Origin: Elusimicrobiota bacterium | GTDB lineage: Bacteria; Elusimicrobiota; Elusimicrobia; 2-02-FULL-39-32 | DNA: 64,000 bases | Reading direction: 5' to 3' | Assembly (NCBI GenBank): GCA_016180425.1 | Contig: JACPBF010000001.1 | Coordinates: forward strand, 517,447 to 581,446 | Shown: positions 33,134 to 56,656 of the stretch, piece by piece | Position numbering within the stretch: position 1 is the stretch's first letter | Layout of the letters: every line of letters begins with the position of its first letter | Translations under genes and position numbers: made by a program | The notes under the pieces: model-generated | Database searches by the model: none | Told to the model about the DNA's origin: nothing | The model's input: the letters and a program-made list of their open reading frames with translations, nothing else

Positions 33134-33198
33134 AGGTCACGGCACTTAGGCTTTTTGTGCCGTCCAGAATTTGGTAACAGGTAAGAAGTTCGACAAAA

Positions 33199-33639: not shown

Positions 33640-33790
33640 TTCTTACCACCATGTCAGGATGGCTTTTCGTCATCTCTGAGTAGGGTTTTGCCTATACTTT
33701 TCTGAAAGATGTTGCGTTATTTGAATTTTGATTTCTTTATGAAATTATTTTTAGCTTATAAGAATAGGGCTTGGATTCCAACAAACTAAT

Positions 33791-35977: not shown

Positions 35978-35989
35978 AATTTTGTAACT

Positions 35990-36151
35990 ATGTCAGCGTT
36001 GTCACGAAACGCTCCTTGCATGGCCATCGTTGACAAACAGGGGATCATCCGCTTCAAATATTTCGGAGGATTTCGTAAAGAACCGGTTACCCAGTTTATT
36101 CGGGCGTTGGTAATTGAAAATAATTCTCCATCAGCAAAGGAAGATTTATGA
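35990..36151 (+). pseudogene. Remnant of a thioredoxin-like (TlpA/redoxin) gene, C-terminal part only
   Basis: A 53-codon frame contains CMAIVDKQGIIRFKYFGGF followed by a C-terminal helix (EPVTQFIRAL). This is the last strand-strand-helix part of a TlpA-like protein (compare SVSFLIDQQGIVRYVHPG in the gene at 33.8 kb), without the active-site half. It is in frame with the preceding gene, separated only by that gene's TAG. Its stop overlaps the ccdA start. It looks like the residue of a deletion in the redox cluster. Confidence 0.6.
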
Positions 36152-36876
36152 ACCAGATTAATATTTGGATGGCATTTTTAGCCGGAGTTGTTTCATTTCT
36201 GTCCCCTTGTGTTTTACCGTTAGTGCCAGGCTACATCTCCTTCATGTCCGGCCTTTCTTTGGATGAGCTCTCCAAGGGAGCGGAAAAGAAACTTCTGATG
36301 AAAAGAGTCGGCTGGAGCTCGGTATTTTTTGTTCTTGGTTTTGCCTTGGTCTTTACGCTTCTGGGCGCTTCAGCGACCGCAGCGGGACAATTTCTTTCGG
36401 ATCACATGGCGGTGATCAGTAAAATTGCAGGGGCCTTGATCATATTATTTGGCATGCACACCATTGGGATATTGCCTATCAAATGGCTTTATTACGAAAA
36501 GAGAGTTCAGACTTCAAAGATAGATCCGGGATTTTTTGGCTCTTTTGCCATGGGGCTGTCTTTTGCGTTCGGCTGGACACCTTGCATCGGGCCGATCCTG
36601 GCAGGGATTCTTGCGCTTGCCGCCACTCAAGAAACTGTCTGGCAAGGAATGTCCCTTCTCCTGATCTATTCGTTGGGTCTTGGCATTCCTTTTATTCTCA
36701 CGGGTTTTAGCGTGAACGTCTTCCTCCAATTTTTTAACCGCTATAAACGGTTCATTCGTTGGGGCGAGATTTTTGCTGGAGCTCTCCTTCTTTTTGTAGG
36801 AGTCCTGATATTTACAAATAAATTGACCGCGCTGATTCAGTACATGCCGCAGTGGCTGTTCAAATTTTCAATTTGA
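36148..36876 (+). CDS. ccdA: CcdA-type cytochrome c biogenesis/thiol transporter
   Basis: 242 residues, six membrane helices. Conserved Cys pair motifs: VVSFLSPCVLPLVPGYISFMSG in helix 1 and GWTPCIGPILAGILALAA in helix 4. CcdA moves reducing equivalents from cytoplasmic thioredoxin to periplasmic TlpA-like proteins. The next gene, 9 nt on, is such a protein. Confidence 0.95.
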   Translation: MNQINIWMAFLAGVVSFLSPCVLPLVPGYISFMSGLSLDELSKGAEKKLLMKRVGWSSVFFVLGFALVFTLLGASATAAGQFLSDHMAVISKIAGALIILFGMHTIGILPIKWLYYEKRVQTSKIDPGFFGSFAMGLSFAFGWTPCIGPILAGILALAATQETVWQGMSLLLIYSLGLGIPFILTGFSVNVFLQFFNRYKRFIRWGEIFAGALLLFVGVLIFTNKLTALIQYMPQWLFKFSI

Positions 36877-36885
36877 GGTGATAAG

Positions 36886-37440
36886 ATGGAAATTAAAAGT
36901 GCAGTAAAAAAATATGGTATCGTAACCATTTTTGTTCTGGCCGCTATAATCGGCATTTCAATCGGACTTGTTCAAAGACGGAACTCCCAATCATTGACTG
37001 GTGAAACTTCTGGAAGAATCACAGATAGGAGCACCTCTGCTCCGGATTTCACAGTTTATGATTTAGCAAACAAACCAGTGAAACTGGCGGACTTCAAAGG
37101 TAAGGCGGTGGTGCTTGATTTTTGGGCGACATGGTGCCCACCTTGCTTAGAAGATATCCCACACTTTAAGAAACTGCACCAGAAATATTCCGATCAAGGC
37201 CTGGTTATTTTAGGCGTTTCATTGGATGAGTCGGGCAGAGATCATGTAAAGGAGTTTGTAAAGGAAAATTCGATTTCCTATCCCATTGCCATGAGTAACG
37301 ACAGAATCGTGAAAGATTTTGGCGGGATACGGGGAATCCCAACCACATTCATTATTGACCGCAATGGAAAAACTGTTGAAAAATTGGTGGGGTACCACGA
37401 TCTTGAAAAATTTGAATCTCTTGTTAAAAAAGTTTTGTAA
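36886..37440 (+). CDS. TlpA-like thiol-disulfide oxidoreductase
   Basis: 184 residues. N-terminal membrane anchor (~12-28), then a thioredoxin fold with [25 protein letters not shown] (active site CPPC split here by WATW before it), [11 protein letters not shown] and cis-Pro segment GIPTTFIID. It receives electrons from CcdA and reduces periplasmic disulfides, for example apocytochrome c or mer-type Cys proteins. GAGGTGATAAG precedes the ATG. Confidence 0.93.
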
Positions 37441-37445: not shown

Positions 37446-39758
37446 ATGCGCTTTTTATTAACTAAAAATCGTTTTATTTTCATAGGAGCTATTTTTTTAG
37501 TAGGATTGTTATGGGTACTTTCTTCCAACAATCATGGAAATGGTAAAGACAATCCTGTGAAAACCAATAAAGCAAATCGTCTTATTTACGAAAAAAGCCC
37601 TTACCTTCTACAACATTCCCATAACCCAGTGGATTGGTATCCTTGGGGAGAGGATGCGTTTAAAAAAGCAAGAAAAGAAAACAAACCGATTTTTCTTTCT
37701 ATCGGGTATGCAACTTGCCATTGGTGCCATGTGATGGAAAAAGAATCTTTCTCAAATCCAGAGATCGCAGCTGTGATGAATGAACACTTTGTATCCATCA
37801 AGGTGGATCGCGAAGAAAGACCGGATGTGGACAAGATTTATATGACCGCAGCTCATGCCGCAGGATGGGGAGGCGGCTGGCCATTATCCATGTGGCTGAC
37901 CCCGGAATTAAAACCATTCTTTGGCGGCACCTACTTCCCTCCCAATGAGCGCTGGGGCATGCCAGGATTTAAACAAATCTTACTCCGAACCTCTGAACTA
38001 TGGAAGACGAAACAAAAAGATATAGCCTTAAATGCTAATCGCTTGGAACAAGCATTAAAACAATATACCCAAGTAGAGGGAAGATCTGGCGCGCTCGATG
38101 CAGAATCTTTGAATAAAGGATTTGCTGCGTATCGAGCAGACTTTGTCCCCTCTAAAGGTGGGTTTGGTGGAGCGCCGAAGTTTCCCATGCCAGTTAATCA
38201 AAATTTTCTGTTGCGTACCTATGCAAAATCAAAAGAGAAAAAAGCATTAGAAATGATCACGCATACGCTGCATGAAATGGCAAAAGGAGGGATATACGAC
38301 CAGATCGGTGGAGGATTCCATCGCTATTCCACTGATGAGAACTGGCATATTCCCCACTTTGAAAAGATGCTTTATGACAATGCGCAGCTGGCAATCAACT
38401 ATCTTGAAGCCTATCAAATCACCAAAGAAAAAGAATTTGCCAGAATTGCCCGGGAAACTTTAGATTATGTTCTGCGTGACATGACTCATAAAGAGGGAGG
38501 GTTTTATTCCGCAGAAGATGCGGATAGCCTGCCGACCGAGTTTCAACGAGGAAGTGCCACATCCAAAGATGTTATAGGAGAGCGGCCGACCGAGTTCAAA
38601 GATAAAATTGAAGATACTAACCATGAACATCGTTCCGAAGGCGCTTTCTATCTATGGGAAAAAAAAGAGATTCTAGCTATCTTAGGAAAAGAATCTGGCG
38701 AAATCTTCAGCTACCAATATGGTGTGGAAGAGAATGGTAATGCAAAGTCTGATCCACAGGGTGAATTCATAAATAAGAACATTCTTTACCTTGCTCATTC
38801 GATTGAAGAAACAGCTAAAAAGTTTGGCAAAAAAGAAGAGGAAATTGAAAGAATTTTGGATGAAGCTAGAGATAAACTTTTATCCGAGCGTTCTAAACGT
38901 CCTAGACCAGAACGAGATGATAAAATTCTAGTGGATTGGAATGGACTGATGATTTCAGCTTTTGCTAAAGCAGCTCAAGTGTTGGATAACCCAGAGTATC
39001 TAAAAACTGGAGAGAAAGCCGCTCTTTTTTTAAAAAACCATCTCTATGATGATAAAAACAATCGTCTTTATCATCGCTGGAGGGAAGGAGATAGAAATAT
39101 TCCTGCTTTATCCCTAGATTATGCGCTTTTAATCCAAGGACTTCTTGACCTCTACGAAACATCTCTAAATGCAGAATGGCTCATATGGGCAATTGAACTG
39201 ACAGAAACAGAAATCAATCTTTTTTATGACAAAGATAAGGGTGGTTTCTTTATGACTAGTCCTGATCATGATAAGAACCTCCTTGTGCGGGCCATGGATG
39301 ATACAGACAATGTTATTCCTTCAGAAAGTTCTGTGTCTGCGCTCAATCTTCTGCGCTTGGCGCAGTTTACTGGGCAAGAGGGGTTCCGAAAAGCAGCAGA
39401 AAAAACCCTCATACGATTTGGAGCCCAGATGAAACAACAACCCAGATCTCTACCCCAAATGTTAGTGGCGCTAGATTATGCGCTATCTAAACCAAAACAA
39501 ATTATTATAGCAGGTGATCTAAAATCAGCTGATACAATTAAAATGGTGCAGGAGGTTCATAAACGATTTATTCCTAACAAGATCCTCATGGTTATTGATG
39601 AAGGAAAAAATCGTGAATCCCTAACTCATTTTTTACCATTTCTGGAAGGGATTAGACGTATCCAGGGAAAGTCCACAGCCTATGTCTGCATCAATTACGC
39701 CTGTGAACTGCCAACAAACGATCTACAAATATTGCAAAAAATATTGGACGAAAATTAA
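37446..39758 (+). CDS. YyaL/SPATA20-like protein (DUF255 thioredoxin plus six-hairpin domain), membrane anchored
   Basis: 770 residues. Residues ~8-26 are a membrane segment, absent from most YyaL proteins. DUF255 (~45-205): [40 protein letters not shown] (CxxC ~92), [14 protein letters not shown]. An (alpha/alpha)6-type region follows, with [20 protein letters not shown] and [20 protein letters not shown]. Residues ~362-396, between the conserved EDADS and EGAFYLW, are an insertion ([18 protein letters not shown], then PTEFKDK) encoded by a copy of a genomic repeat. Function of the family is uncertain. It ends the redox block. Confidence 0.88.
38534..38597 (+). repeat. Repeat element carried in frame inside the yyaL-type gene
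   Basis: 38534-38560 matches intergenic 60957-60983 at 24 of 27 positions (shared core TCAACGAGGAAGTG). A second partial copy starts at 38586 (CCGACCGAGTT), 54 nt after the first, giving an 18-residue in-frame period beginning PTEF. It encodes the extra segment of the protein. Confidence 0.7.
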
Positions 39759-40150: not shown

Positions 40151-43100
40151 TTATGCTTGCTGCTTATAGAGCTGGGCGATCTTTTGTTCTTCATCCTTAG
40201 AAGGCGGTTCCAGTGGAACTCCTTGGATGGTCAGACGATCTCCTATAATTTCTACTCCTCGTTCCCCCTTTAAGCCCTCTGCCCAGTCTCTTAACCCTGA
40301 ATTCATCGCCCCCATCTCTATTAAGCTTAAGCTCACTTCTTTACTAATATCAAGCACCTGCGGAATCAATATCTTGATATTCCATTCTTGAGCCTCTTCT
40401 GCCAAAAGATTTTTCCATACCATTGAACTCTTCTGTGTGGTAACAATCCTTAAAGAGAAGGATTCGCTCCTAGCTATTCTCTTTAACTCAATCACCGCTT
40501 CTTCCGCGCTTTCTAAAACAGCTATTGTCCCCCTTATGCCCAATGCTTTTTCTATCTCTCCAATGGCTGCGCCATTCTTATTCACAGAAAGATACTGAAC
40601 TTTCTTAAATGGATTCTTCTTTTTCTGTTCTTCAATCTGCTGGATGGTTCTTAATTGCAGTAAACGGTCGTTCTCAGTCTTTGCGCTCTCAAAATCTATC
40701 AGACAAATCTCTGGCTGATTCACCTCCGCGCTCCAAAATTGAAAAACTTTATCTAATACAGAGGAATAAGAGAATTCGGTTTGTAATAGAAGTTCCTTAA
40801 TCTTATCTGTTGAATCCCCCAAAGCTTGAGCTACTTGCACAATTCCTTGAAGGTTAGGATTGAGTCCTGTTTCAACTCCAGCAAAAGATTTTGAAACATT
40901 CGTAAGGTAATGATTGATTACTGAAGCAGCTAGCAATAGAGGAAATGAAATCCAGAAGGGAACAGGAATAATTAATTGGATAATGCCTAAAAGCAGGTTG
41001 ATCCGCGCAATCTTCTTTGCAGATTCTAAATATTGAGGAGGAGCGCGAGAATCAAAACGATTGGCGATCCATTCTTTGTGTCCTTCAACATATACCAACA
41101 AACTAGAGAAAAAAGAGACTTGCAGAGCTACTTGAAGATTGCTCCCTGTCAAAATATAAGTTAATAGCCCAATAGACAACGCACTCAAGCCAAAAGAGAT
41201 CACGTCCTCCAACCACGCCCACTTCCGATTGTAGTCTTCCAAGGTAAAATCATATATGGTGGGATCAGGGAAGAAATGTTTTCTAAGCAATTCATACAGC
41301 CACACCCAGTTGCCACCACCAGAAAAGTCATCAGCGTGATTAGAAGGAGTTTCTCCTAATATTTGTTGTATTCTGGCCAAATCTACAAGGAATGCGGCAT
41401 GCGGATAACTATTTTCAATTTCGTCGCATATTTTTGAATAAAGATTATTTTGAGGGGTGTAAATATCAACAGAATTTACTTCCTGAGTCATCACTACATT
41501 ATTGATAACATCAGCAAAAAATCTGGCTAGAATTCTCGTCTCCCAAGATAAAAGGTGGGATGGAACATTAAATGAAAAAGTGTGAGTATTATCATTAGCA
41601 TGAATCAATATTGTTATTTTTTCATTTTGATCTGGAATCGCGGACTCTATCAACCTTCTTCCCACATCCGCTATGTTCCCAGACTTTTCTACAACGCTAA
41701 TCGGAAGCGGGCTTTGTCTGCCATATTTCATCGCTTCATCAATCTCATGAATCTTGGCTTCTAAATCATTGAGACCGTCTGGTCCCAATGTTCTAAACGA
41801 CCACACGCCCAAATTTTCTGCCGGCTCAACATCTTTTAAATAATCATTCCCAACATAAACAATTTGACTGGGACTCACTCCAAGCGCTGCCAAGACCCTT
41901 TCATAAAAAATTGGTTCTGGTTTAGAGGCTTTTACCCGATCTCTGGTAATGAGAAGCGACGGATCAAAACATTCCTCAATACCAATGATTTGCAATATTC
42001 TTTTAACCACCTCTTTGCCACTATTAGTTGCTATCGCTAAAGTATAACCCTGTCTTTTAAGATGGTCTAAAAACTCTTTTAGCTTTGGATTCGGCTTTAT
42101 CAAATCGAATGGCATATGTTTCAGTTCTCCTATTTCTTTCCCTCCCCAACTGATGCTGAATTCAAGGGATAATTGATTGCTGCTTACCGCGCCTTTATTT
42201 GAAAGCTCATCACTTTTATTTTGGATTACCTCTCTGGCTGTTTCGATTGAGACATTATTTCTTTCAACATAAGTTCTTACAAGCGCCTCCCTATACATCA
42301 CCTCGAACTCTGGAGCATGGTAAAGGGTTCCATCTAAATCGAATAAAATCAATTTAATTCTTTCATCAATGTTGGAATGTACGTCGCTTCTATCCTGAAC
42401 TTGAGCTTGCGTTTTAGATTCGGGCTTCTTAAGCAGGGCACGAACAGGAGGATGATTGGAGATACCATCAGCAAGGCTGGCAAGGATAGTGCCACCGGCA
42501 GTGGTAAGCAGAATGGCAGGGTTTAGCTCACGGCCGCCCCAATCTTTCTCACGCACCTCATTCACAGCCTTAAGCATGTCGCCGCCAACCAGAAAGACAG
42601 GAACTCCGGCAACTCTCGCTTCCTCCAGTTTTTCCAGAAGTCGTCGTGTTCCCACGCGACCGTCACTACGCTCAAAAACCCCAGTGCCGCCATTGGCGAT
42701 AATCCAGCCTTCGCCCTTCTCTTTATGGCGCTCTATGATCTTATCAATCTCCTTAAGTATTACATCCAGTGTCTTAGAACCAATGTCAATCGCTTTTTGC
42801 TCAATACCAATTTGATTGACAAGTTCTGCTGTCTCCTCGTCCCGCACAATGACTCTATGATCTATAGGTAACAATAACTTCATATCGTTCTCTTGCGCTC
42901 TCTCTCTAATTTTGGAAATAGCTTTCTCAACCTTGAGTGCCGCTTCCCCCTTTGGCAGCCTTGACTTACCTATGGACTGACCTGCCTGTTTAAGGAAAGG
43001 ATACGCTAAGGCTCCTACAACAACCATGATATCCCCAGCATGTTGTTGCCCACTAGACACATATTTGAGCAAATGCTTATAGATTTTATCCGGTTTAGTA

Positions 43101-46100
43101 CCTCCCCAGATAATGAGTCCTGCCCCACGAGCTTCTGCTTCAAACTCGAGTTTTTTGTTGACTTCTTTAACAAATGAAATTCCAGCTGCCCGTGCCTCGG
43201 GAGGAAAATGGTTTGCCATTCGCACTGTTGCATCCGTGATGTGGCTTTCGATCGCTTCATTAATATAAGCTGCAGGATGACCCAACGCATTAAGAAGTCG
43301 TTCAATAAATTTGTCCTGATCTTCAGGAGTTGGCTGTGAATCAGTATAATAGCTGCTCTCCTCTGGATAGAAACGGCTGTTGGGTAACATAAAGACAATC
43401 TTTTTGTTTTTATGGAACTTGCGCGCAGATTCAATGGCAGCAGGCATTGCGTCAATACTTTCTGGAAGCATAACGATTTCCGCATCAATGCCTATCTCTG
43501 TCATCCGTCTTTTGGCTATTGGAAGAACTTTTTTTTCAACGTCGAACTTTTCTCTGCTAATAGGATCATCGAGCTGTTCTTTTCTGGGACGTCCAAGATG
43601 TGTACAAATAAAAAGTTCGTCAAATTTTTCTAAAGCACGTTTGACGGTTTCCACAGTCTGAACGATCTTGGTATCCCCATCCCCAGGATCCTCTCCGATA
43701 TCCCAGTTGATCTTGAGAAATGCAGATCGCCCATCCGTCAAATCTTCTATTGTGCGTATTTCCTCGAGAGGTTGATGATCCTTTGGTAAATTCTTGTCTA
43801 TCCTCCGACTCCTCATTTCATTTTGATAATTCATCCTGCCTAAAGTGAGCGCCATGGAAATCTTAAGGTTGACATCTTTTGTTTTTTCCAGCCATTTAAT
43901 AAGTCCATCCTTATTGAATGAATAATCTTGAAGTTCCGTGCGTATTTCTAATTTTTCTTCCTCGCGTCCTTTAAACAACTTTTCAGATTCATTAATGATG
44001 GACTCTTCTATGGATTCACCCTTAGCCTTAGTCTTAGCCAAAAACTCTGGATCCCACTTAGGTCTTGCAAGTTCCGTAGCGGAAATTTTTCCGGTTTCTG
44101 CTAGATTTACATTATTATCTGCGGCATTAGCAGTGCTATTTTCTTGAAACCGCCTCATAAGATATTTGAGCGCCTTCTCAATTCCACCCTTGATGACAAA
44201 AGGCACATAAGAATATATGCGAGGCAAAGCCTTATCTTCTCCCCAAAAATATCTAAAAATTTCCTGAAGAGCTCGTTTCAAATTTTCCGTCATTCCATAC
44301 AAGGATTGAAATTCCAAATGTTGAGGATCCACATTCAGTTTCTTTGCCCATAATAGGGCGCTGACAATGGTTCGAACATCATGGCTGGCGATCCCGATTC
44401 TTTGAATAAGATCATGTTTTTTAAACAATAGTCGCAATATCTCCAAATAATTTTCATCGGTTTTCCAATTTCCCATCCAAACAGGAATTGGATCACCCTG
44501 TTGTTCTGCATCGCGAACCTCCTGCGAATGATAAGCTCCCTTAACCGGACGAATGGCGATAGGCATTGGATCCTCAGGAACCTTTTCCATCCAGTTTATG
44601 AGCCCCTCAACTTCAGCCAAAGAATCTACAAAATAGGCTTGTACCACCATCGCAATGTCTGGAATTCGCAGTCCGTTTTCTCGTACCATCTTCAAGTTTG
44701 GATCTGCCTGATTTTCAAGCTCTTCCAGCAGAGTCTGAATTACTTCATTGGCAACATCACGATAAATATATTCTTCTTTATCAACCCAGACAATTGCTCT
44801 CATCCATCCTGCTCTTTTAACTTCACGCACTTTTGTCACTATCTTTTTATAATTCCGAACAGCTAAATCGAATCCATCTTTTCTTACAGATTCATCTTCA
44901 CTGTCCAGCCAATCCTTTGGTGTAAGATTAGTTACCTTTGAGGAAATATTAGGTTCCAGACCATAGGACGCCATTTTTTCAATAAGCTCTACACAAGCTT
45001 GAGCATTTTCATTTGCTTCATCTTCTGTATGAATTCCTTCACCCAAAATGTCCGCTATTGATAAAACAGGCCTAGACTGAGATTTCTCCTCTTTCACAAC
45101 CCTGATTCCTTTTGCCGCCATGTCCCGTATAACTTTTTCCACCGCCTTTTCTTGTGAGAGATTTTCCATGGATTGAAGCGCTTCATCCACAGTGGTTCCC
45201 ACAATATACTGCGCTGTCATAAAAAATAATAACCTGCGCAGCCATCTTTTAAAAATTTCTGGTGTCCTATCAGACTGGATGATTTTATCAGCCAAATCTA
45301 CACTTCCATTCAAAAGTTTTGCAAACCTTGGGTTGGGATACATTTTTAAAATGAATTTTGAGATTCCGTTTCTTAGACGTTCCAGTACATTTAAGATCCT
45401 TTCTCTTTCTTTTCGAATTGATTTGGAAACCTCCACAAGCCTTTCTGTCTCACGAACGATTTCAGATTCCGGTATTCCCCACCCGCCATTATCTTCTTCT
45501 ACCTCATCTCTATATTGCAAATGGGGACGTTTCACATTGCCCTCTAAATTAGAAACTTCCTTGTTTTTCCTTAATGTATCACTAACATCCGTAGGTCCCA
45601 GAGCGGAAAATAAGTTAGCGAGGATCAAGGTGACTGCTGTAAGAACGGCGAGCCAGTGAAAACCAGATGCCGCAAAGATGGCCAGAACAGCAACTAGATT
45701 CGCAATAATCCCTGAACTTCCATGAGCGCCCGGAACAGTGATGCGAAACCCCAAAACCTTTTGCAGAGCTGGCGGCCAATCATCAAAAGCAATCACACCT
45801 TTTGTATCTAGTTTTGGCCAGCTCCATTCCCTGAACGGTTTCTTCCAGTTGACCTCAACCATGTGGCCAACCTCATTGATAACAATGGCAAGAGAAACAG
45901 CGGAAATTGCGCTGCCCCAAAGAGAATTGGCGTCAACTGAAATTCCGAAAAATCCTGCTAAAACAATCGTGGATAGATAAGTAACCGCGGGAACAACAAA
46001 TAAAAGAGCAATTAGATCGCTCGCATTTTTTGGTGGAGATTTGTCCGGATCATATTCACCGATCACTCTCATATTGACCCGTGTGGGATCTACTAAAATT

Positions 46101-49100
46101 TCTGATAATTTATCATGGGATCCTTTAGAATAAAGATATTCTTTTACAATTTCTCTAATCCCCCATTTCTCTATATCAAGCGATTTAAAAGTTTCATTAA
46201 ACGATATGAGTTCGAACAAATGCTGGATTGGATCCCAAGCTAACCAAGTAACAGGAGTCGGGGGATTTTTTTCTTCGTTAAACCATTGCCGACGAAAATG
46301 CTCCACAACCATTTCCCTCCCAATTTTCAACACTTCTCTAGGCGATCCATAATAAGTTCTTTCTAATATTTGACCCGGGACAAGAGGGTGTCTCCGACTC
46401 CCAAAACGGTAAACCACAACTCTTTCCCCACGATATAAGCGATCTAGTAATTCCTCTTCCGATTTAATCTCTTCCATTCTAATTAATGGAGCACGGGCAA
46501 GTGAGTCCTGAGGTATGGACTTAAGCGATAGTTCGACTTCATAAAGATACGGCGCTTTATATGCCCGCGGATAAAAAAATATAGAACATGCCCGAGAGAG
46601 AGGAATTCTCACATAAGAAGGAAGTTCTGGGGACATGTTTGAATTAAGTGAAGTATCTCCAGAATTTTCGCTCTGGAATTTTTCTGGATTGGTACGTTTT
46701 GCCAGACTTACTATGTTCCTACCCACTTCAGTTTTTTCCCAAGAACGTATCACCCCTAACTCCTCAAGTGATTCTTGATCTGACCATTGAGAATTACGCA
46801 GCGCTATGCCAAGCTCTATTTTTTTGGATGGATCGCTTGCCAAAACTAACTCCACAGTTTTTTGACCCACAACAAATTCTTTTCTTGCGGCAATAACATA
46901 TTTTTCCCCATTGTAATCGGCCAATACTTCAGAGCTTAATTCAGAACCAATCTGAGTGGGAACTCCTTCCAATACAATCCGAAAACCCTTACCATCTAAG
47001 AGAATTATTTGGTCAAGGTGGACAGACTTTATGTTATGTTTTTGGAATCCTAAAACACCATCGCGGTAGGCAGGGTGGGCCGTCATTAATTTAGCGAAGT
47101 TAAGCTCAATTTGCATGGCTTTATCCTTGTCATTTCTCCATTTAGCGCTTGCAAATGTATCAATCAAAAATTCAAAGAGCCAAAGGCTATAAGCGGAATT
47201 AGACTGCATGACCGCCAAAGTTTCTTGCGCGAACCTATCTCCATTTCTAGCGCCCTGCTCAAGCCTACTTAAAATATCTCTCAAGGTTCCCTGACTGTTC
47301 TGTTCAAAATCAAAATATTTTTTTATAGCGGCGCTCTTGTTGCTGATATTAGGATCACTATAAGGTCCCATGGTTCTGCCGTTAATCACTCCCCAAACAT
47401 CTTTTTTCCCAAGCGCACTCCTGTTAACAACATAAAATTCTAAATGTCTTAAGAAAATCTCAACACCGCCAGAAGTATATCCATCCGCAAGACCAAACTG
47501 AACCGCTTCTATTCCTGACATCATTGCTCCGGTTAAACCATAATACTTGGCAAGCGTCAAACCTATTTTTTTAGATAAAAATAATGTGGATCCCACATTG
47601 GGAAAAAATCCGAACTTAGCTTCTGGCATGGAAATTTTTGTGGTTTTATCAGTGACAATAAAATCTGCAGCGGCTGCAATCCCTAACCCACGACCTATTG
47701 TGTAGCCGTGAGCAAGAACAATGGTAGGTTTAGGAAATTCCCGAATATCTTTGAGTAGGCGGTCTCCTATCTCATAGAATTCGTTTACTTTATGGGTTGT
47801 GGCCGGATCCATCAGGTTATTCAAAATTTCTACAATATTTCCGCCAGCGCTAAAATTATCTTTGGCGCCCTTAAAAACTAAAACCTTAATATTTTTATTT
47901 ACACGAGCCTCTTTCACAAGCTTAATCATTCTCTTAATATGGGCATAAGTGAGCGCATTCAATCCATTGTCACTTGCAATAGAAATTGTGCCCACACCTC
48001 CAGGACTTACCGAGAGAGTTGCTAGTAAAGATTGTTGTTCTTTTGTAGAAAGAATTACAGCATGATCGGACTTCTTGGTTTTTCCAGCAGCTGACTTGCC
48101 ATCTTTCTTTCTTCCGGACATTGCGGCTAAATCTGGACTTAAAATATTATTTTTTTTCTGTGTAAAGATGTTAGCTAATATGGAATTCTCCAATACTGAA
48201 GTTAATGAGGATCGAGAAATGAGAATGTGAAGTAAAGCTAAAAAAGTAATTGCGCTCATTAAATTAGAAAACTGAGGTATTCCAACTCCCGCAACAACGG
48301 TTGTAAGAAGGGTACCTGATTGAAAAACTGCAGTCAAAATATTTAGCAGCGGCTGATAGAAAATAATTGCAACACCAGCCACTGCGCCAGCGATGAAAAC
48401 CACTTCCGATTTTGCCTGGCCGCCTTCGTCTTTAAGCAGATTGATAATTCCATTCGATGGAACAGGCGCCGATTCAGATGCTGTATCTATTTTAGCAGGA
48501 GATGGATCAGTCACTGATTCAGATCCTTGTTCAGTCTTAGATGGAGATGAAATATGTCCCGATCCTGATGCAGGTTCAGATTGAGGGAGGGGCGATGCCG
48601 AAGGAGTTGCGATTTCAGGAACCGGAGCCGCTATAAAGTTAACGATTGCAGCTGTCCCAAGTATGCCCGGTGGAAAAAGTAATAGCCAAGCCAACTCTTC
48701 AGTTGAGAACGCCTGCTCTCTACGGAAAATGGAAAAGATAACCAATCCTATATATCCAGCCGAAGTTAATAAAAATAGATTTAAACTTGGTTTGAAATCT
48801 TTGTAGAAAAACTCATCTTGCTCTTTAGGCGCGCCAACTGTGATAAGAATTGAATCGCTTGGAATCGGTGTAATTGCGAACCGCTCCTCATTGGGAATGA
48901 ACCCCAAAGAAGCGGTCTTCTCTAAATCACTTCGGGGAGAAATTATAATTTCTTTTTCAGGTGAAAGATATGCCCGGAAAAAAGGATCGGTAAGTGTTCT
49001 TTTTCTTGCCTCGCGTTGCTGATATTTAATTCTGATAGTATTGCTACGGAACTGGATAGAAGAAATTTTAGTACCTTTAAGTCCTTCTTCAAAATCTGTT

Positions 49101-52100
49101 CTCCCTAAATGATAGACGCTCTTTCCTTCAAAATCATAAATAGAAAAATAGTGATAAAGGTATCGGTGTTTATCAATCGTGTCCAGATACTCATAAACAA
49201 TTCCAATATGTTTGCCATCGCTACTTAAGATTTTTCCAATGATTTTTCCCCTGCTATTTGGCATTCCTGAAACATCATTTAACCGTTTTGAAGAAATAAT
49301 CTTCCCTGTTTTAATTTCCTTTCTATAAAGGTAATATTCGACTCCCCTTCGAGGCAGATTAGATTGTTTTATAGAAATGCTTTCGGTTCCGCCGGGCAAA
49401 ACCATCTCTTCTTGCATCACGGAAGATATCGAGGAAAGCGTCCCGCTAGGAACCGGCACATTCACAGCGCCAAACGCAGCCTTGCCCATTAAGGATACAC
49501 TCAAAACAACAGCGGATAAAAATTTAGAAAATTGTTCTGCTCTTTTCTTTCCATCTTTCAGGATGGCATGGAAACGTTTTAAATATTTTCCCCGCTTGCT
49601 CAAGGGCTGGCCATAAAAATCGGGTGATGCGTTGGCGGGAATTGTTTGCGCGCTGTTTAAAATGGATTCAAATTCAGGGAGTGAATAAACCAACAATTCT
49701 TGAATGATCACTTCATCCACGCCCAATTCTTCCGCGATCTTGTCAGGCGCCAATCTCTTTATCAAAAACATATTCAGAATGATCTGAATGGTAGGACTTT
49801 CAAACGAGCTCAACAGCGCTTCGATGATCTCTTCCTCTTCTCCATGCGTCTGCATCAGTTCAACCGCGGCCGATAATTTTTTCTGATCAATGATATCCGT
49901 TGGCGAAAGGATATCATCATCAACTTGGGGAAATTCTTGAGAGCGATAGGCAGTGATCAATGGATTCTCTTCAATGTCAAAGATCGAACAAAAAAGGCGT
50001 AACTCACCAATCGTAAGCGGAAAAGTTGCTCCGCTAGAAATATTGAGAAGCTCCATATATAAGACGACGGACGCTTTTTGATCTGATGGAGAAAAGTTTT
50101 CAAGTAAAGGACGATCTTTATTTAACGCGTATACGCAAAATAGATTCGCCTGAAATCTGCTGAAGACCTCCCTAAAATGAGCGGGATGTCCTAAAAGTTT
50201 ATAAAGCGCTTGAACGCGTTCATTCAGGTTTGGAGTTTCGGTTCGAACCCGGTTCACCAAATTCCTTAAATAATCTAAGTCGGATTGAGAAGGCTCAAAC
50301 CAAAAAGCTCCTCGAAGCAAATCGGGAAAATCAGCATGCCACATGAGTTTCTGCCAAATTTCATTGGATGTTTTTCCAGTTGCCGCCTCATCTTCTTCAA
50401 AAGAAAAGTAGGATTCGGCTCTTTTATACGCCATGATAATTTGGTCTTTTTTCCATGGATCGTTAGCAATGCTTTCGTCCCGCAATAATCTGTGATAGGC
50501 TTCTTCAATCGCTTCTCGTGAGGGTGGCTGCGATTTATTGAAAGGCAATCCCAGTTTTGCAAGCGCAACCCTTAAATCATAAGGCGAAAGAAGCATTGCC
50601 CGATGATTAATCTTTGCTTCCAGCGCTTTAAGCGCGGCGTTAAACCTGTGCATTTCATTGGGCGGAACCGCGTTCACTATCCTTTTCAGCCACCCATTCA
50701 TAAAGACCCCTAGTTTTTGCTTAGGATTTTCAACAAATTGCCGAAGCGCGGCTCTCAAATAGCGATCATAAAAAGCTGCGTCCTGAATTTGCGGTGGTTT
50801 GGATCCACCGGGGTACTCGCGGAAATCAAAATATCTGTGGGCGCGCCACCATGGGATTAAGAAATCCAACGCCTCAATATCATCAATGTTCCCTCCCTCA
50901 TCCAACCACTTCATAATAGATTCCCTTCGATCCACTAAAATAGAATAGAGTTCCGCATAATAATTCAAAAATAGTTCCAGCTTTAAGCTCCAATGGCCTC
51001 CATGCCCTCCGTAAGAAACGCCTCTGGCAGTTAACCAATCCCTTAACAACGCGTTTTCTGGAAGTAGTTTTGAATCGTCTCCAACCCAATGTATGGTGCC
51101 AAAAATTTTAAAAACTTTTGTCCGTTTGGATAGTTCTGCAAGGGCCTGACTTTGAGCCGATTGATCCGGCCCCGATTGAAAAACCATGGCTGAGGAAGGA
51201 AGCCGAACAGGGCGGTAGAAAACCATATCCCCTGCCAGAGCGCAAACGAGATTGTCTCTGTTCAACTCAATTAAATCTTTCAGCGGAACTATTGTTACGT
51301 AAGGGTATTCGTTCCAAACGCCATCTACCACGCCATTCAGGCTAAAATGAACCGTCTCTCGTATGCTATATTCAGGGCTCATAAAAGATTCATCAATGTT
51401 ACCGTAAAAATATTTGTTGCCTTCCCCGTCTTCTTCTGGAGGAACCTTCGTGATCCGCACGGCATAGAGAGGAAACGATTCGGTTCCGTCCTCAAACAAT
51501 TCAAACTGTTCTGGATCCAGCAGAACCGCGTCTTCTGACACCTGATTGCCGGACCAAGCGTTTTCCAACGCAAAGGTGTGCCAAAGGTTAGTAGTAGAAG
51601 AATCCAACTCTTTAGCCAGATCTCTTAAAAGTTTTAAGAGATCTGGATCATGCCAAAATCTTAGCAGACCCCATATAAATTCGCGCCGATCACGATCCGT
51701 TACCAACAGGGTGCGAAGCAGACGTTTCAAGTATGATTTGTTGAGCAAAGGAATTTTACCTGATCGTTTCAATTGATTGATCTCTTTCAGAGTCAATGTA
51801 AGATGGTTAGTTGGAAGAATCCTAGAGAACAAAGATCTAATATGGTGGAGCGTTTGCGGCACGCCAAAAAGAGAGCGCGTCAAACTTCGAAGTTCAGTGT
51901 CCATTATTTGCGCGAGGGAATAAGCGGAGTTATTTCTAGAACTGGTGTTTCCGACAGGAGGTTCAGTTGGGTTGGGACTGCTCTGACTTGAAGCGAAAGT
52001 TTTAGATGGCTCCCTTCCATTGCCAGACATCGCGACATAGGAATTGCCAACTTTTTGAACGCGTCGATTCATAGCGTTAGAAGAAACTATGCTATCAGAA

Positions 52101-52546
52101 ATAAGAGTTAGCGTTTTTGGAAAAATTTGTCTGAAAATTTCTAAGCTATCTTCCAAATCTTGAGAGATTTGTTCTTCAAGTTTGTAATAGCATTGCACGG
52201 CGTAATCTAAAACGGTTTCAAAAATCTTCACTGATTTTTCACGGATCAGATCAAATTCCTTTTTTGCATTATTCAGAATAGGGTTAGAAAATCCCATATT
52301 TCGGCCTAATGGCTGTAGATTAGAATTTTGAGGAACATATTTGTTAAGCACTACTTGCTGTTCCATCGGTGATTTTACAGAAAGAGGTCTTCCTCGAAAT
52401 TGAAAACTTTCAGCTCTGGAGGAAGAAATTTGTTTGGCTTGAGCAAAGGGCGGGAGTATAATAGAAATCAACAAAGCGCCGACAACCACGAGCGCGGTGC
52501 TCTGTTTGAAAAATAGAATGATCTTTTTATTCCAAAAGTAGTGCAT
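40151..52546 (-). CDS. Giant exported multi-domain protein (crotonase/HIBCH-like, S2P-like, proline dehydrogenase, PGK-like and HAD domains)
   Basis: 4131 residues in one unbroken frame. Residues ~17-37 are a signal/anchor (LVVVGALLISIILPPFAQA). Residues ~40-1000 are mostly helical and unrecognised; ~652-712 is J-domain-like without HPD and ~920-955 HTH-like. A second signal-like segment lies at ~1005-1030, membrane segments at ~1252-1310 and ~1379-1445, with a Ser/Pro/Glu linker between. ~1500-1830: crotonase/HIBCH-like (NFSAGGN; PEAKFGFFPNVGS). ~2200-2320: membrane part resembling site-2 proteases (NEVGHM). ~2490-2810: proline dehydrogenase (RPVKGAYHSQEVR, YLMRRFQENSTAN). ~2930-3365: phosphoglycerate-kinase-like (THLGRP, NSRFYPEE). 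~3400-3605: HAD (LFDLDGTLY, VGNDYLKD). ~3780-3880: membrane segments. No Shine-Dalgarno sequence is seen; a TATAAT lies at 52581-52586. Residue numbers are approximate. Export topology and activity are inferences. Confidence 0.9.
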   Translation of the reverse strand: MHYFWNKKIILFFKQSTALVVVGALLISIILPPFAQAKQISSSRAESFQFRGRPLSVKSPMEQQVVLNKYVPQNSNLQPLGRNMGFSNPILNNAKKEFDLIREKSVKIFETVLDYAVQCYYKLEEQISQDLEDSLEIFRQIFPKTLTLISDSIVSSNAMNRRVQKVGNSYVAMSGNGREPSKTFASSQSSPNPTEPPVGNTSSRNNSAYSLAQIMDTELRSLTRSLFGVPQTLHHIRSLFSRILPTNHLTLTLKEINQLKRSGKIPLLNKSYLKRLLRTLLVTDRDRREFIWGLLRFWHDPDLLKLLRDLAKELDSSTTNLWHTFALENAWSGNQVSEDAVLLDPEQFELFEDGTESFPLYAVRITKVPPEEDGEGNKYFYGNIDESFMSPEYSIRETVHFSLNGVVDGVWNEYPYVTIVPLKDLIELNRDNLVCALAGDMVFYRPVRLPSSAMVFQSGPDQSAQSQALAELSKRTKVFKIFGTIHWVGDDSKLLPENALLRDWLTARGVSYGGHGGHWSLKLELFLNYYAELYSILVDRRESIMKWLDEGGNIDDIEALDFLIPWWRAHRYFDFREYPGGSKPPQIQDAAFYDRYLRAALRQFVENPKQKLGVFMNGWLKRIVNAVPPNEMHRFNAALKALEAKINHRAMLLSPYDLRVALAKLGLPFNKSQPPSREAIEEAYHRLLRDESIANDPWKKDQIIMAYKRAESYFSFEEDEAATGKTSNEIWQKLMWHADFPDLLRGAFWFEPSQSDLDYLRNLVNRVRTETPNLNERVQALYKLLGHPAHFREVFSRFQANLFCVYALNKDRPLLENFSPSDQKASVVLYMELLNISSGATFPLTIGELRLFCSIFDIEENPLITAYRSQEFPQVDDDILSPTDIIDQKKLSAAVELMQTHGEEEEIIEALLSSFESPTIQIILNMFLIKRLAPDKIAEELGVDEVIIQELLVYSLPEFESILNSAQTIPANASPDFYGQPLSKRGKYLKRFHAILKDGKKRAEQFSKFLSAVVLSVSLMGKAAFGAVNVPVPSGTLSSISSVMQEEMVLPGGTESISIKQSNLPRRGVEYYLYRKEIKTGKIISSKRLNDVSGMPNSRGKIIGKILSSDGKHIGIVYEYLDTIDKHRYLYHYFSIYDFEGKSVYHLGRTDFEEGLKGTKISSIQFRSNTIRIKYQQREARKRTLTDPFFRAYLSPEKEIIISPRSDLEKTASLGFIPNEERFAITPIPSDSILITVGAPKEQDEFFYKDFKPSLNLFLLTSAGYIGLVIFSIFRREQAFSTEELAWLLLFPPGILGTAAIVNFIAAPVPEIATPSASPLPQSEPASGSGHISSPSKTEQGSESVTDPSPAKIDTASESAPVPSNGIINLLKDEGGQAKSEVVFIAGAVAGVAIIFYQPLLNILTAVFQSGTLLTTVVAGVGIPQFSNLMSAITFLALLHILISRSSLTSVLENSILANIFTQKKNNILSPDLAAMSGRKKDGKSAAGKTKKSDHAVILSTKEQQSLLATLSVSPGGVGTISIASDNGLNALTYAHIKRMIKLVKEARVNKNIKVLVFKGAKDNFSAGGNIVEILNNLMDPATTHKVNEFYEIGDRLLKDIREFPKPTIVLAHGYTIGRGLGIAAAADFIVTDKTTKISMPEAKFGFFPNVGSTLFLSKKIGLTLAKYYGLTGAMMSGIEAVQFGLADGYTSGGVEIFLRHLEFYVVNRSALGKKDVWGVINGRTMGPYSDPNISNKSAAIKKYFDFEQNSQGTLRDILSRLEQGARNGDRFAQETLAVMQSNSAYSLWLFEFLIDTFASAKWRNDKDKAMQIELNFAKLMTAHPAYRDGVLGFQKHNIKSVHLDQIILLDGKGFRIVLEGVPTQIGSELSSEVLADYNGEKYVIAARKEFVVGQKTVELVLASDPSKKIELGIALRNSQWSDQESLEELGVIRSWEKTEVGRNIVSLAKRTNPEKFQSENSGDTSLNSNMSPELPSYVRIPLSRACSIFFYPRAYKAPYLYEVELSLKSIPQDSLARAPLIRMEEIKSEEELLDRLYRGERVVVYRFGSRRHPLVPGQILERTYYGSPREVLKIGREMVVEHFRRQWFNEEKNPPTPVTWLAWDPIQHLFELISFNETFKSLDIEKWGIREIVKEYLYSKGSHDKLSEILVDPTRVNMRVIGEYDPDKSPPKNASDLIALLFVVPAVTYLSTIVLAGFFGISVDANSLWGSAISAVSLAIVINEVGHMVEVNWKKPFREWSWPKLDTKGVIAFDDWPPALQKVLGFRITVPGAHGSSGIIANLVAVLAIFAASGFHWLAVLTAVTLILANLFSALGPTDVSDTLRKNKEVSNLEGNVKRPHLQYRDEVEEDNGGWGIPESEIVRETERLVEVSKSIRKERERILNVLERLRNGISKFILKMYPNPRFAKLLNGSVDLADKIIQSDRTPEIFKRWLRRLLFFMTAQYIVGTTVDEALQSMENLSQEKAVEKVIRDMAAKGIRVVKEEKSQSRPVLSIADILGEGIHTEDEANENAQACVELIEKMASYGLEPNISSKVTNLTPKDWLDSEDESVRKDGFDLAVRNYKKIVTKVREVKRAGWMRAIVWVDKEEYIYRDVANEVIQTLLEELENQADPNLKMVRENGLRIPDIAMVVQAYFVDSLAEVEGLINWMEKVPEDPMPIAIRPVKGAYHSQEVRDAEQQGDPIPVWMGNWKTDENYLEILRLLFKKHDLIQRIGIASHDVRTIVSALLWAKKLNVDPQHLEFQSLYGMTENLKRALQEIFRYFWGEDKALPRIYSYVPFVIKGGIEKALKYLMRRFQENSTANAADNNVNLAETGKISATELARPKWDPEFLAKTKAKGESIEESIINESEKLFKGREEEKLEIRTELQDYSFNKDGLIKWLEKTKDVNLKISMALTLGRMNYQNEMRSRRIDKNLPKDHQPLEEIRTIEDLTDGRSAFLKINWDIGEDPGDGDTKIVQTVETVKRALEKFDELFICTHLGRPRKEQLDDPISREKFDVEKKVLPIAKRRMTEIGIDAEIVMLPESIDAMPAAIESARKFHKNKKIVFMLPNSRFYPEESSYYTDSQPTPEDQDKFIERLLNALGHPAAYINEAIESHITDATVRMANHFPPEARAAGISFVKEVNKKLEFEAEARGAGLIIWGGTKPDKIYKHLLKYVSSGQQHAGDIMVVVGALAYPFLKQAGQSIGKSRLPKGEAALKVEKAISKIRERAQENDMKLLLPIDHRVIVRDEETAELVNQIGIEQKAIDIGSKTLDVILKEIDKIIERHKEKGEGWIIANGGTGVFERSDGRVGTRRLLEKLEEARVAGVPVFLVGGDMLKAVNEVREKDWGGRELNPAILLTTAGGTILASLADGISNHPPVRALLKKPESKTQAQVQDRSDVHSNIDERIKLILFDLDGTLYHAPEFEVMYREALVRTYVERNNVSIETAREVIQNKSDELSNKGAVSSNQLSLEFSISWGGKEIGELKHMPFDLIKPNPKLKEFLDHLKRQGYTLAIATNSGKEVVKRILQIIGIEECFDPSLLITRDRVKASKPEPIFYERVLAALGVSPSQIVYVGNDYLKDVEPAENLGVWSFRTLGPDGLNDLEAKIHEIDEAMKYGRQSPLPISVVEKSGNIADVGRRLIESAIPDQNEKITILIHANDNTHTFSFNVPSHLLSWETRILARFFADVINNVVMTQEVNSVDIYTPQNNLYSKICDEIENSYPHAAFLVDLARIQQILGETPSNHADDFSGGGNWVWLYELLRKHFFPDPTIYDFTLEDYNRKWAWLEDVISFGLSALSIGLLTYILTGSNLQVALQVSFFSSLLVYVEGHKEWIANRFDSRAPPQYLESAKKIARINLLLGIIQLIIPVPFWISFPLLLAASVINHYLTNVSKSFAGVETGLNPNLQGIVQVAQALGDSTDKIKELLLQTEFSYSSVLDKVFQFWSAEVNQPEICLIDFESAKTENDRLLQLRTIQQIEEQKKKNPFKKVQYLSVNKNGAAIGEIEKALGIRGTIAVLESAEEAVIELKRIARSESFSLRIVTTQKSSMVWKNLLAEEAQEWNIKILIPQVLDISKEVSLSLIEMGAMNSGLRDWAEGLKGERGVEIIGDRLTIQGVPLEPPSKDEEQKIAQLYKQQA

Positions 52547-54765: not shown

Positions 54766-55989
54766 TTAAAGATAAATTAATGTTTCGTTCGGATGATCCA
54801 GAGAAAGAAAGAGCAACATATATTCCCTTAGATGGCGCGTAAGAAGAAAGTTATTCCGTACCTGCTCTCTTCCATTATCCCCAAGTTTCTTCGCGTACTC
54901 CGGATTTTGCAGAAGCTGTTTTAACCAGTAGGCTGTACCTTCAATAGAATGGGTTAAAATACCGGAATATTTGTGGGTAATTTGCAAGGGAATGCCTCCT
55001 ACAGCGCTGGCGATGACTGGCTTCCCTTTCCAAAGCGCTTCCGAGACTGTAAGTCCAAAACCTTCTTTGAGCGATTTCTGTAAAACAACTGTGGATGCGC
55101 GTTGTAACGCATTAATCTCAATGTGACTGGTAGGAGGCAAACAAAGAATATGAATGTCAGTATCTTCTCCTGCTTTTTGACGCACCTCCGTAAGCACTTT
55201 AACTCCCTCAGGATCATCATCTGCTGAACCGCCTGCTAGAACAAGCTGGCAATTCACATATTGTTTTACAAGTTTGTAGGCCTCAATCACTCCTACAGGG
55301 TCTTTAAAATAATCAAACCTAGAAATTTGTGTAACAATGGGACGCTCCGCGTCAATTTTAAAACGAGAAAGAACTTCATCTATTGTTCGTTGCGGTAATT
55401 CCTTATTCTTATCGCTCAAAGGATCAATGGAAGGCGGGATCAACATTTGCCGATGAAGAAGTCCCTGAGTAAACGAGGGAGCGGAAAAAACTGAGGCGTC
55501 GTACTGTTGAATCATTGGCTTTAAAAAATTCCAAAGAGTTTCATCTTTTTCCGAAAGATCAATGTGGCATCTCCAAATCCAACGGTTTTTATATTTGTTT
55601 CTTTCAAGAACCAAAGCAGCAGGTTGAGGGTCATGAATAAAGAGGATGTCCGCATCCAACGATAAACTTAAGACATTATCCCGAACAGTATCCAAATACA
55701 ATTCAAAATCTTCTTTACTCAACTGTTCTTTTTTCCCATGCAAGGCATTATGAAATTTTTTAGTAATGATAAAAAACTTCTCCCCGCCTTTAATGCACTC
55801 CCATCGGGCATTGACACCCATCTCCTTTAAAAGCGGAACCATTCGGTTTAATATCTCGGCCACGCCTCCTCCTGTGGAAGTTGAATTAATATTGACAATG
55901 GATTTGCCTCTTAATTTTTCTGAGATCAATCTCAATTCCGATATTTCATTTTCCCCTACGATGGAAATATAATCATCCAGATTAAACAT
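54766..55989 (-). CDS. treT: Trehalose synthase TreT-type GT4 glycosyltransferase
   Basis: 407 residues. The N-terminal segment VNINSTSTGGGVAEILNRMVPLLKEMGVNARW is characteristic of TreT, which joins NDP-glucose and glucose to make trehalose (and can run in reverse). Further motifs: HDPQPAAL, WRCHIDLS, VTQISRFDYFKDPVGVIEAYKL, LQKSLKEGFGLTVSEALWKGKPVIASAVGGIPLQI (GT4 E-x7-E). It overlaps the DUF5752 gene by 8 nt. Its presence beside otsA and otsB gives two trehalose routes in one operon. Confidence 0.9.
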   Translation of the reverse strand: MFNLDDYISIVGENEISELRLISEKLRGKSIVNINSTSTGGGVAEILNRMVPLLKEMGVNARWECIKGGEKFFIITKKFHNALHGKKEQLSKEDFELYLDTVRDNVLSLSLDADILFIHDPQPAALVLERNKYKNRWIWRCHIDLSEKDETLWNFLKPMIQQYDASVFSAPSFTQGLLHRQMLIPPSIDPLSDKNKELPQRTIDEVLSRFKIDAERPIVTQISRFDYFKDPVGVIEAYKLVKQYVNCQLVLAGGSADDDPEGVKVLTEVRQKAGEDTDIHILCLPPTSHIEINALQRASTVVLQKSLKEGFGLTVSEALWKGKPVIASAVGGIPLQITHKYSGILTHSIEGTAYWLKQLLQNPEYAKKLGDNGREQVRNNFLLTRHLREYMLLFLSLDHPNETLIYL

Positions 55990-56656
55990 GCATCATCTCC
56001 TGTATTCTTCTTTCCACAAGATTAATCACTTGATGTCGTAATCCTTCTAAAGTGTGCGTGTAAGGATCCATTTTTGAGATAGCTTCAGCGAGCTTGGTTT
56101 CTCCCAAGGCAGTTTCGAACCAATTGGAAAAATCATTGATTTCAAGAGGCGGGCGAATCCTCGCTTCAAAAATATGGTGATAGAGTGAATTGATGCTTAC
56201 TTTTTTAAGCGCTTCGGCAAATTCACTTAAATTCCACGTCTCATAAGGCGTTGGCAACACAAAGCTGATGGATTGCTTAAAGTAAAATTCATCTCCGGCG
56301 GGAGCATCGTGGTGATTCTTATATGAAATGAGATGTTCCTCAATCGTTTGAACTACTTTCTCTCTAATATCTCGAATAGTCGGAAAACGGATGGTGTCTA
56401 TCGCGAATAGCTTCTCCGCCAGTTTTTCATCCTGCAAGGCAGTGTCAACCCAATAGGCAAAATCGTTGGGCGGCTCGGGCAAGAGGAATTGGTGTTGCTT
56501 TAAAAATCGGTGGGTGTGATGATAAATCACCGAACCGGGAACTTCTTTCAAACAGCTGAGCAATTCATAAATATTTTTTGCCTTCCACTGGGTCATTTGA
56601 GTTACGCTGACCTGAGTTACAAATCTAAACGGCGCGCTTGCCATTTTAAGTTCCAT
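55982..56656 (-). CDS. DUF5752 family protein
   Basis: 224 residues from the ATG at 56656, preceded by GAGGGAG; a longer frame would extend into otsB. It contains two similar halves: FEYxH-type helices seen as LLSCLKEVPGSVIYHHTHRFLKQHQFL, DFAYWVDTALQDEKLAEKLFAID, and later SINSLYHHIFEARIRPPLEINDFSNWFETALGE. DUF5752 proteins occur with trehalose or glycosyltransferase genes in many bacteria; function is unknown. It overlaps otsB by 11 nt and treT by 8 nt, so translation is probably coupled. Confidence 0.85.
   Translation of the reverse strand: MELKMASAPFRFVTQVSVTQMTQWKAKNIYELLSCLKEVPGSVIYHHTHRFLKQHQFLLPEPPNDFAYWVDTALQDEKLAEKLFAIDTIRFPTIRDIREKVVQTIEEHLISYKNHHDAPAGDEFYFKQSISFVLPTPYETWNLSEFAEALKKVSINSLYHHIFEARIRPPLEINDFSNWFETALGETKLAEAISKMDPYTHTLEGLRHQVINLVERRIQEMMHV

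Follow-up and report, generated by a model that had tools for sequence, protein, structure and literature searches.

A 4131-Residue, Probably Exported Mosaic Protein of the Elusimicrobiota Carries Captured Metabolic Enzyme Domains and Differs by Whole Modules from Its Orthologue in a Congener

Introduction

Giant open reading frames have been described in the Omnitrophota, among them the one that encodes the 39,678-residue protein of Velamenicoccus archaeovorus (Seymour et al. 2023, PMC10066038), and the Elusimicrobiota are reported to be enriched in proteins of more than 5000 residues (PMC11573180). Such giants mostly have few recognisable domains, and the roles proposed for them are adhesion, predation and the breakdown of polysaccharides (PMC10066038, PMC11573180, PMC12057145). 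A literature search on the Elusimicrobiota turned up no account of enzyme-bearing giants; West-Roberts 2023 (bioRxiv), which may mention similar cases, lies outside this comparison.

The protein analysed here, of 4131 residues, has the traits of the exported giants of Omnitrophota and Elusimicrobiota: a long frame, a signal peptide, membrane segments and several companions in the same genome. Its gene lies in a stretch of 64,000 nucleotides, hereafter the window (G000:C18:517447–581446). The assembly, G000, totals 2.6 Mb, of which 659 kb belong to the contig that encloses the window. A first-pass annotation had placed the host in the Omnitrophota. This was wrong: Elusimicrobia bacterium RIFCSPLOWO2_02_FULL_39_32 (MGUU01000002.1), which carries the orthologue, is the nearest named relative, and the host is therefore a member of the Elusimicrobiota.

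Results

One uninterrupted frame, a signal peptide and six modules

The open-frame translation runs on the minus strand from 52546 to 40154, with the stop codon reaching 40151, and gives 4131 residues with zero internal stops, so that the single 12.4-kb frame reported earlier is real as a frame; the chance of 4131 stop-free codons, (61/64)^4131, is absurdly small. Its features are as follows.

40151–52546, minus strand: giant open reading frame, 4131 residues plus stop, from translation; the orthologue is the 2452-codon frame of G001:C2.
52436–52546, minus strand: Sec-type signal peptide, residues 1–37, with cleavage after AQA, from sequence.
51998–52435, minus strand: N-terminal region, residues 38–183, kept in the congener (81% identity to G001).
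48188–51997, minus strand: block 1, residues 184–1453, missing from the G001 orthologue by alignment.
49463–49519, minus strand: internal hydrophobic segment resembling a signal peptide, residues 1010–1028, from hydrophobicity.
48215–48784, minus strand: cluster of hydrophobic segments, residues 1255–1444, from hydrophobicity.
46664–48079, minus strand: block 2, residues 1490–1961, containing the crotonase and missing from the G001 orthologue by alignment.
47054–47992, minus strand: crotonase/HIBCH-like domain, residues 1519–1831, from Pfam ECH_2 and alignment to PDB 4hdt.
45527–46036, minus strand: membrane module with M50/S2P-like motifs, residues 2171–2340, with homologues in giants of G036 and G033.
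45863–45877, minus strand: NEVGH motif, residues 2224–2228, NE-x-GH replacing HExGH, from alignment.
44129–45085, minus strand: proline dehydrogenase (ProDH) domain of the PutA type, residues 2488–2806, from Pfam Pro_dh, motifs and PDB matches.
42476–43678, minus strand: phosphoglycerate kinase (PGK)-like domain with an eroded active site, residues 2957–3357, from Pfam PGK and alignment with PGKs of the class.
41804–42358, minus strand: HAD hydrolase domain, residues 3397–3581, from Pfam HAD_2 and motifs.
40847–41266, minus strand: degenerate membrane module with CPBP-like motifs, residues 3761–3900, from alignment with giants that retain the motifs.
40154–40846, minus strand: C-terminal tail, residues 3901–4131, ending PPSKDEEQKIAQLYKQQA, 33–42% identical to the G0_C22, G1_C11 and G1_C27 giants.

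The signal peptide, judged by eye, is MHYFWNKKIILFFKQSTALVVVGALLISIILPPFAQA followed by K, a textbook Sec type, and this bears out the earlier description of the protein as carrying an export signal; a similar segment also stands at the N-termini of other giants of G000, G001 and G004. The several membrane segments described at first reading correspond to twelve hydrophobic 19-mers above a Kyte-Doolittle value of 1.6, found at residues 17–35, 1010–1028, 1255–1444, 2178–2302 and 3782–3877. The four enzyme domains first named, the crotonase (ECH_2, 1519–1831, E 6.4e-46), proline dehydrogenase (Pro_dh, 2488–2806, E 1e-44), PGK-like (PGK, 2957–3357, E 2e-35) and HAD (HAD_2, 3400–3581, E 5e-23) domains, were all recovered, each far above the Pfam gathering cut-off. 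The degenerate CPBP-like domain and the 230-residue tail (3761–4131) make a sixth module beyond the five recognised at that stage.

No tandem repeat or internal self-similarity was found along the 4131 residues, and a repeat-built adhesin is therefore ruled out. No RNA element within the gene reached the Rfam thresholds, and the PHROGs profiles gave only HAD matches and two weak unknown families on the same stretch, with no phage link. Elsewhere in the window an nhaA-I riboswitch exceeds the Rfam threshold at 60177–60238 (minus strand), and the plus-strand region 29532–37440, which adjoins the giant, holds genes for a MerR-like regulator, Cys-rich membrane and small proteins, and CcdA-like and thioredoxin-like proteins, a cluster partly kept in G001.

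A fused, syntenic orthologue lacks two blocks

In G001, a member of the same genus, the orthologue is fused as well: it comprises 2435 residues from the matching start, in a 2452-codon frame of C2, and is flanked by counterparts, 76–96% identical, of the window genes at 28365–31034, 37446–39758 and 54766–57464. It covers residues 1–183, 1454–1489 and 1962–4131 of the giant, and is without residues 184–1453 (block 1) and 1490–1961 (block 2, with the crotonase). The joints are clean, in frame and placed within charged or Ser-rich linkers (AMSGNGREPSKT; AMSGRKKDGKS). Since this orthologue is 89% identical to the giant across 2163 aligned codons and yet lacks two blocks, modules enter and leave in frame: whole modules have been gained or lost between the two congeners. 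The fusion is thus seen in a second assembly for residues 1–183, 1454–1489 and 1962–4131, and blocks 1 and 2 are seen in the G000 assembly alone. Two outcomes named in the first-pass annotation as counting against a giant gene, an assembly error and separate, normal-sized homologues in close relatives, did not materialise: the G001 assembly has the same fusion with the same neighbours, and separate ProDH and PGK proteins occur only in relatives more distant than the genus.

Across the same 2163 codons dN/dS is 0.18 (Nei-Gojobori, own script), and the aligned chain is therefore maintained by selection. By module, the values are 0.18 for the NExGH membrane module, 0.17 for ProDH, 0.12 for the PGK-like domain, 0.10 for HAD, 0.14 for the CPBP-like module and 0.20 for the tail; the linkers, at 0.29–0.32, are the least constrained parts. 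Purifying selection thus acts over the whole aligned chain.

Within block 1, residues 1041–1332 are 42% identical to part of a 688-codon frame of G004. The signal-peptide-like segment at 1010–1028 hints at a former N-terminus, in which case block 1 would have come from another exported protein.

Enzyme domains: retained and eroded active sites

The crotonase matches PF16113 with 158 bits (cut-off 27). Alignment to PDB 4hdt indicates that the oxyanion glycines (AGGN and GRGLG) and, among the HIBCH residues, the Glu of MPE are retained, and that the Asp of PDVG is replaced by Asn.

The ProDH domain (PF01619, 153 bits, cut-off 27) is of the PutA type, PutA structures being its best PDB matches. 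The motifs KGAY, H, EFQxL[YF]G, YxxP and YxxRRxxE are retained in the giant and in G001, and most of them also in G005, of another genus, whose ProDH is 51–53% identical and lies inside a different long frame. Of the 235 genomes in the class, 59 encode a ProDH, nearly all of them as a separate protein of about 280–540 codons; it occurs in long frames in G000 (4136 codons), G001 (2452) and G005 (1124, at a contig end), and two more frames have 741–742 codons. In each of these three genomes the giant-borne ProDH is the sole ProDH. The HAD domain keeps DLDGT, ATNSG, KPEP and GNDYLKD, motif IV starting with GN, not GD. These motifs suggest that ProDH and HAD are perhaps still catalytic.

The PGK-like domain is homologous to PGK over its whole length (PF00162, 123 bits, cut-off 27) but fails as a phosphoglycerate kinase at its active-site residues. 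It retains 54 of the 120 residues invariant in eight PGKs of the class and carries the substitutions R33K, D35N, N37D, R50K and R165I; VRVDFN has become LKINWD, DTRI DTKI, HRAHAS HITDAT, and the STGGGAS loop TTAGGTI. A normal 406-residue PGK is encoded elsewhere in G000 (C25, L077), adjoining GAPDH. The giant's copy is, to judge from these residues, no longer a PGK, and I would conjecture that erosion of its nucleotide loop suits a compartment without ATP. A giant of 2740 codons in G002 and one of 3149 in G033 also contain PGK-like domains, in which the phosphoglycerate site is better retained than the nucleotide site. Their surroundings are unrelated, so giants have probably captured PGK more than once. 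Genus g48 has, beside a standard PGK, another that looks intact and forms the C-terminal part of a protein of 1.42–1.44 kcodons (L109:5213–9526, minus strand; L110:777–5039, plus strand); this protein has no signal peptide and a normal Cys content.

Membrane modules related to peptidases at the motif level

Residues 2171–2340, first annotated as S2P-like, do form a membrane module in which (N)ExGH, SGxxAN and LGPTD follow one another in the M50 order, but the first zinc His is lost and Pfam gives no M50 recognition at E ≤ 1. That His is Asn in all four aligned copies, as NEVGH in the giant and G001 and as NEFGH and NESGH in two copies within one 2527-codon giant of another family in G036; the loss is therefore conserved and no local accident. 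The module thus does not have the HExxH zinc motif of M50 peptidases (PF02163). A PDB search with the NExGH profile returned nothing up to E 10, and hhalign against M50 sequences of the same class gave a probability of 4.9% (E 0.008), a weak match aligned at the second motif.

For the C-terminal membrane module, EExxxR, FxxSH and HxxxD are retained at the aligned positions of other G000 and G001 giants and are degenerate in the 4131-residue protein, which has neither the CPBP/Rce1 motifs (PF02517; EExxxR, FxxxH, HxxxN/D) nor the profile match. Pfam is silent on this module, the related giants included, and hhalign against CPBP gave a probability of about 1%. With profile matches so weak, the kinship of either module, to M50 and to CPBP respectively, stays at the level of motifs. 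Structure predictions for the NExGH module (four sequences, pLDDT 46) and the C-terminal 532 residues (two sequences, pLDDT 43) were too poor, so the models were not used for fold search.

Giants fill about a tenth of the genome

At their N-termini, 22 distinct frames of G000 share a domain of about 400–600 residues that is missing from the 4131-residue giant; these frames add up to about 81,500 codons, 245 kb or 9.4% of the assembly (own sum, stop-to-stop frames). At least two dozen such giants are present in G000, and they occupy about one-tenth of its length. Many giant frames run into contig ends (G000:C22, C35 and C10; G001:C11, C27 and C16), and the counts are therefore minimal. Of the 41 genomes searched, 20 have the shared domain, and a single genome can contain as many as 53 stretches that match it. 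It is preceded by a signal peptide, often with a [FL]WxERRxA motif; Pfam is silent on it (e.g. G000:C10:6491–8473, L043), and one homologue has a weak ChaN/Tiki match (E 0.006).

The contents of the giant frames are varied. In G000 other frames include a 10,906-codon frame of C18 with three ARMT1-like domains, APH and a methyltransferase, and frames of 4336 codons in C5 (methyltransferases), 5065 in C3 (PALP, HATPase_c), 5918 in C6 and 5783 in C10 (PP2C). A 10.7-kcodon exported giant of G001 (C16, L071/L070) contains a complete PPDK with its TSH histidine motif, HEAT repeats, a malate synthase barrel and a weak PGM/PMM match; a 5723-codon giant of the same genome (L069:1909–19077, minus strand) carries, besides its signal peptide, a very large number of WD40 repeats, and a 2531-codon frame combines an ABC1 kinase with M48 and ends in a C-terminus that matches that of the 4131-residue protein. 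The G036 giant joins a class-V aminotransferase to its two NExGH modules, and giants of G033 carry PPDK_N and GDPD. The first-pass annotation knew of no clear precedent for enzymes behind a signal peptide; the same class holds dozens of enzyme-bearing, exported-looking giants. In relatives, frames as long as 17,755 codons contain M50 and CPBP domains that exceed the Pfam cut-offs, so membrane-peptidase-like modules recur in giants; two such frames, of 17,755 and 13,760 codons, are those of G010:C5 and G010:C13.

Cysteine content and the location of the chain

Cys makes up 100 of 69,267 residues (0.14%) in 20 giants, fragments included, from G000, G001 and G005, and about 1.1% on average in the other proteins of the window. 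In the giant itself, the N-terminal stretch has 4 Cys against 13 expected (P 0.004) and the ProDH-to-HAD stretch 4 against 15.5 expected at the rate of soluble window proteins (P 6e-4). The 890 residues of PGK domains in the family's giants include a single Cys, compared with 33 among 3261 residues of standalone PGKs (P 0.005), and ProDH in giants has 1 in 680, against 14 in 1320 for standalone enzymes (P 0.03). These P values take residues as independent, and the short C-terminal tail is too small to judge. Exported-looking ordinary proteins of the window are mixed in this respect (38 Cys in 3185 residues, metal and thiol proteins included). The depletion is not universal among giants: those of G033, some with clear signal peptides (L088, L089, L090, L108), have a near-normal 0.64–0.93%. 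The Cys poverty of the genus' giants, enzyme segments included, fits export of the whole chain.

Metabolic enzymes of these kinds are normally small, separate, intracellular proteins, and FAD, CoA and ATP are not expected beyond the cytosol, which poses a cofactor problem for exported enzyme domains. An inner-membrane polytopic protein, with only its N-terminal part exported and with ProDH, PGK-like and HAD domains facing the cytosol and its FAD, CoA and ATP, would avoid it. Membrane modules bound the ProDH-PGK-HAD stretch at both ends and could reverse its sidedness, and the catalytic motifs of ProDH are retained; against this, the stretch is as Cys-poor as the N-terminal part, and PGK is poorer in Cys in the giants than on its own. 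I consider a cytosolic orientation unlikely.

The second possibility raised at first reading was a polyprotein, which would be translated whole and cleaved afterwards, by itself or by a different protease, to release the individual enzymes. Several complete domains joined by variable linkers would suit it, as would the membrane-peptidase-like modules of this and other giants, true CPBP and M50 domains above the Pfam cut-offs being present in those of relatives. The giant's own NExGH module has, however, lost the first zinc His and its CPBP-like motifs are degenerate, so that both peptidase-like modules are without their catalytic residues, although a protease acting in trans might still cut the chain; the PGK-like domain would be unlikely to function if freed, and a normal PGK exists; and conserved cleavage linkers are not apparent, the linkers being the least constrained parts. 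Nor is separate initiation at domain borders supported: among 225 in-frame start codons, a Shine-Dalgarno-like core accompanies 14, and none of these is at a domain border. Positive evidence for separate enzymes is thus wanting, and I hold a polyprotein to be quite unlikely. Given the Cys depletion and the lack of supported internal starts at domain borders, the balance favours export of the entire chain. The other possibility raised at first reading, an envelope-anchored giant with recruited enzyme folds, is better supported, by the fused orthologue of the congener, purifying selection, Cys depletion and the erosion of PGK.

Discussion

The reading that I favour is that of an exported, envelope-bound mosaic protein that acts beyond the cytosol. 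One frame, a signal peptide, a syntenic fused orthologue, and membrane modules and a tail common to other giants point to a single chain. The Sec system would export this chain whole, the hydrophobic and peptidase-like membrane modules would anchor it in the envelope, and the captured enzyme domains would face the outside or the periplasm. ProDH and HAD could still catalyse, and the PGK-like, NExGH and CPBP-like modules may have been kept as ligand-binding or structural modules. As to its use, the protein may serve as a platform that, beyond the cytosol, binds and processes material or cells touching the bacterium; this is the most likely use, yet a guess by analogy with the Omnitrophota giants. 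Taken whole, with its function, this statement seems to me more probable than not, a single exported chain being more secure than the whole and the proposed use less so.

If the giant were instead delivered into a prey or host cell, the enzyme domains would act there. Kinase-like, phosphatase, methyltransferase, ARMT1, APH, PP2C and WD40 domains in related giants would be at home in such an effector, and giant proteins of related phyla have been linked to cell-cell contact (PMC10066038); a secretion or translocation module was not identified, however, and several domains look catalytically eroded, so the chance of this is small. A largely non-adaptive origin, in which giant carriers capture genes in frame and slow decay follows, would account for the odd assortment of domains, for gain and loss between congeners and for eroded active sites. 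It is weakened by the selection data, dN/dS being 0.10–0.32 in all aligned segments, the eroded PGK-like domain (0.12) among them, and by the conservation of ProDH motifs across genera; I regard it as very unlikely. That an assembly or annotation artefact fused normal genes is barely credible, frequent as giant genes are at contig ends in these assemblies, for the locus is inside a 659-kb contig, 12.4 kb run without a stop and the congener has the same fusion and neighbours, which refutes an artefact for residues 1–183 and 1962–4131.

A wider proposal, that the lineage devotes about a tenth of its genome to exported mosaic giants, dozens of them, built by in-frame capture of central-metabolism enzymes, some of which (ProDH, HAD) would catalyse outside the cytosol, is doubtful as it stands. 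The two congeners that differ by an in-frame crotonase allow the growth of giants to be studied as a natural experiment.

Several described systems resemble the giant in part. Like it, the Omnitrophota giants are very long, look exported, have many membrane segments and are common in their genomes; their few annotated domains are mainly adhesin-like (discoidin, laminin_G, dockerin; PMC10066038), in contrast to the complete metabolic enzyme domains found here in a different phylum. The huge proteins of Elusimicrobiota (PMC11573180) come from the same phylum but are without COG assignment, whereas the giant, at 4131 residues, falls under the 5000-residue limit and has nameable modules. The protein of about 6000 residues from Menyafoubacter, a sister lineage, is also an exported giant, but has carbohydrate-binding, lyase, Rhs and adhesin-like domains and neither central-metabolism enzymes nor a membrane helix (PMC12057145). 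Among single enzymes, PutA and monofunctional proline dehydrogenases share the ProDH motifs (KGAY, H, EFQxLYG, Y-x-x-P, YxxRRxxEN), but the giant's ProDH sits within an exported giant and is without the P5C dehydrogenase half, most other ProDHs of the class being stand-alone and about 290 residues long. Phosphoglycerate kinase is matched in homology across its full length, but with altered key residues for 3-phosphoglycerate binding. M50 (site-2) peptidases share the order ExGH, GxxxN-like, LGPxD in a membrane segment, but the module here has Asn for the first His in four of four copies and escapes Pfam. Giants of Omnitrophota and Elusimicrobiota are known, but most of them cannot be read; the modules of this one have names and can be set against those of close relatives, and this makes it testable whether the protein is a single chain, which side of the membrane it works on, and whether the captured enzymes are active or binding modules. 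The giant belongs to a known kind of giant protein, and what is new is that captured metabolic enzyme domains can be named in it and that the turnover of its modules is visible between congeners.
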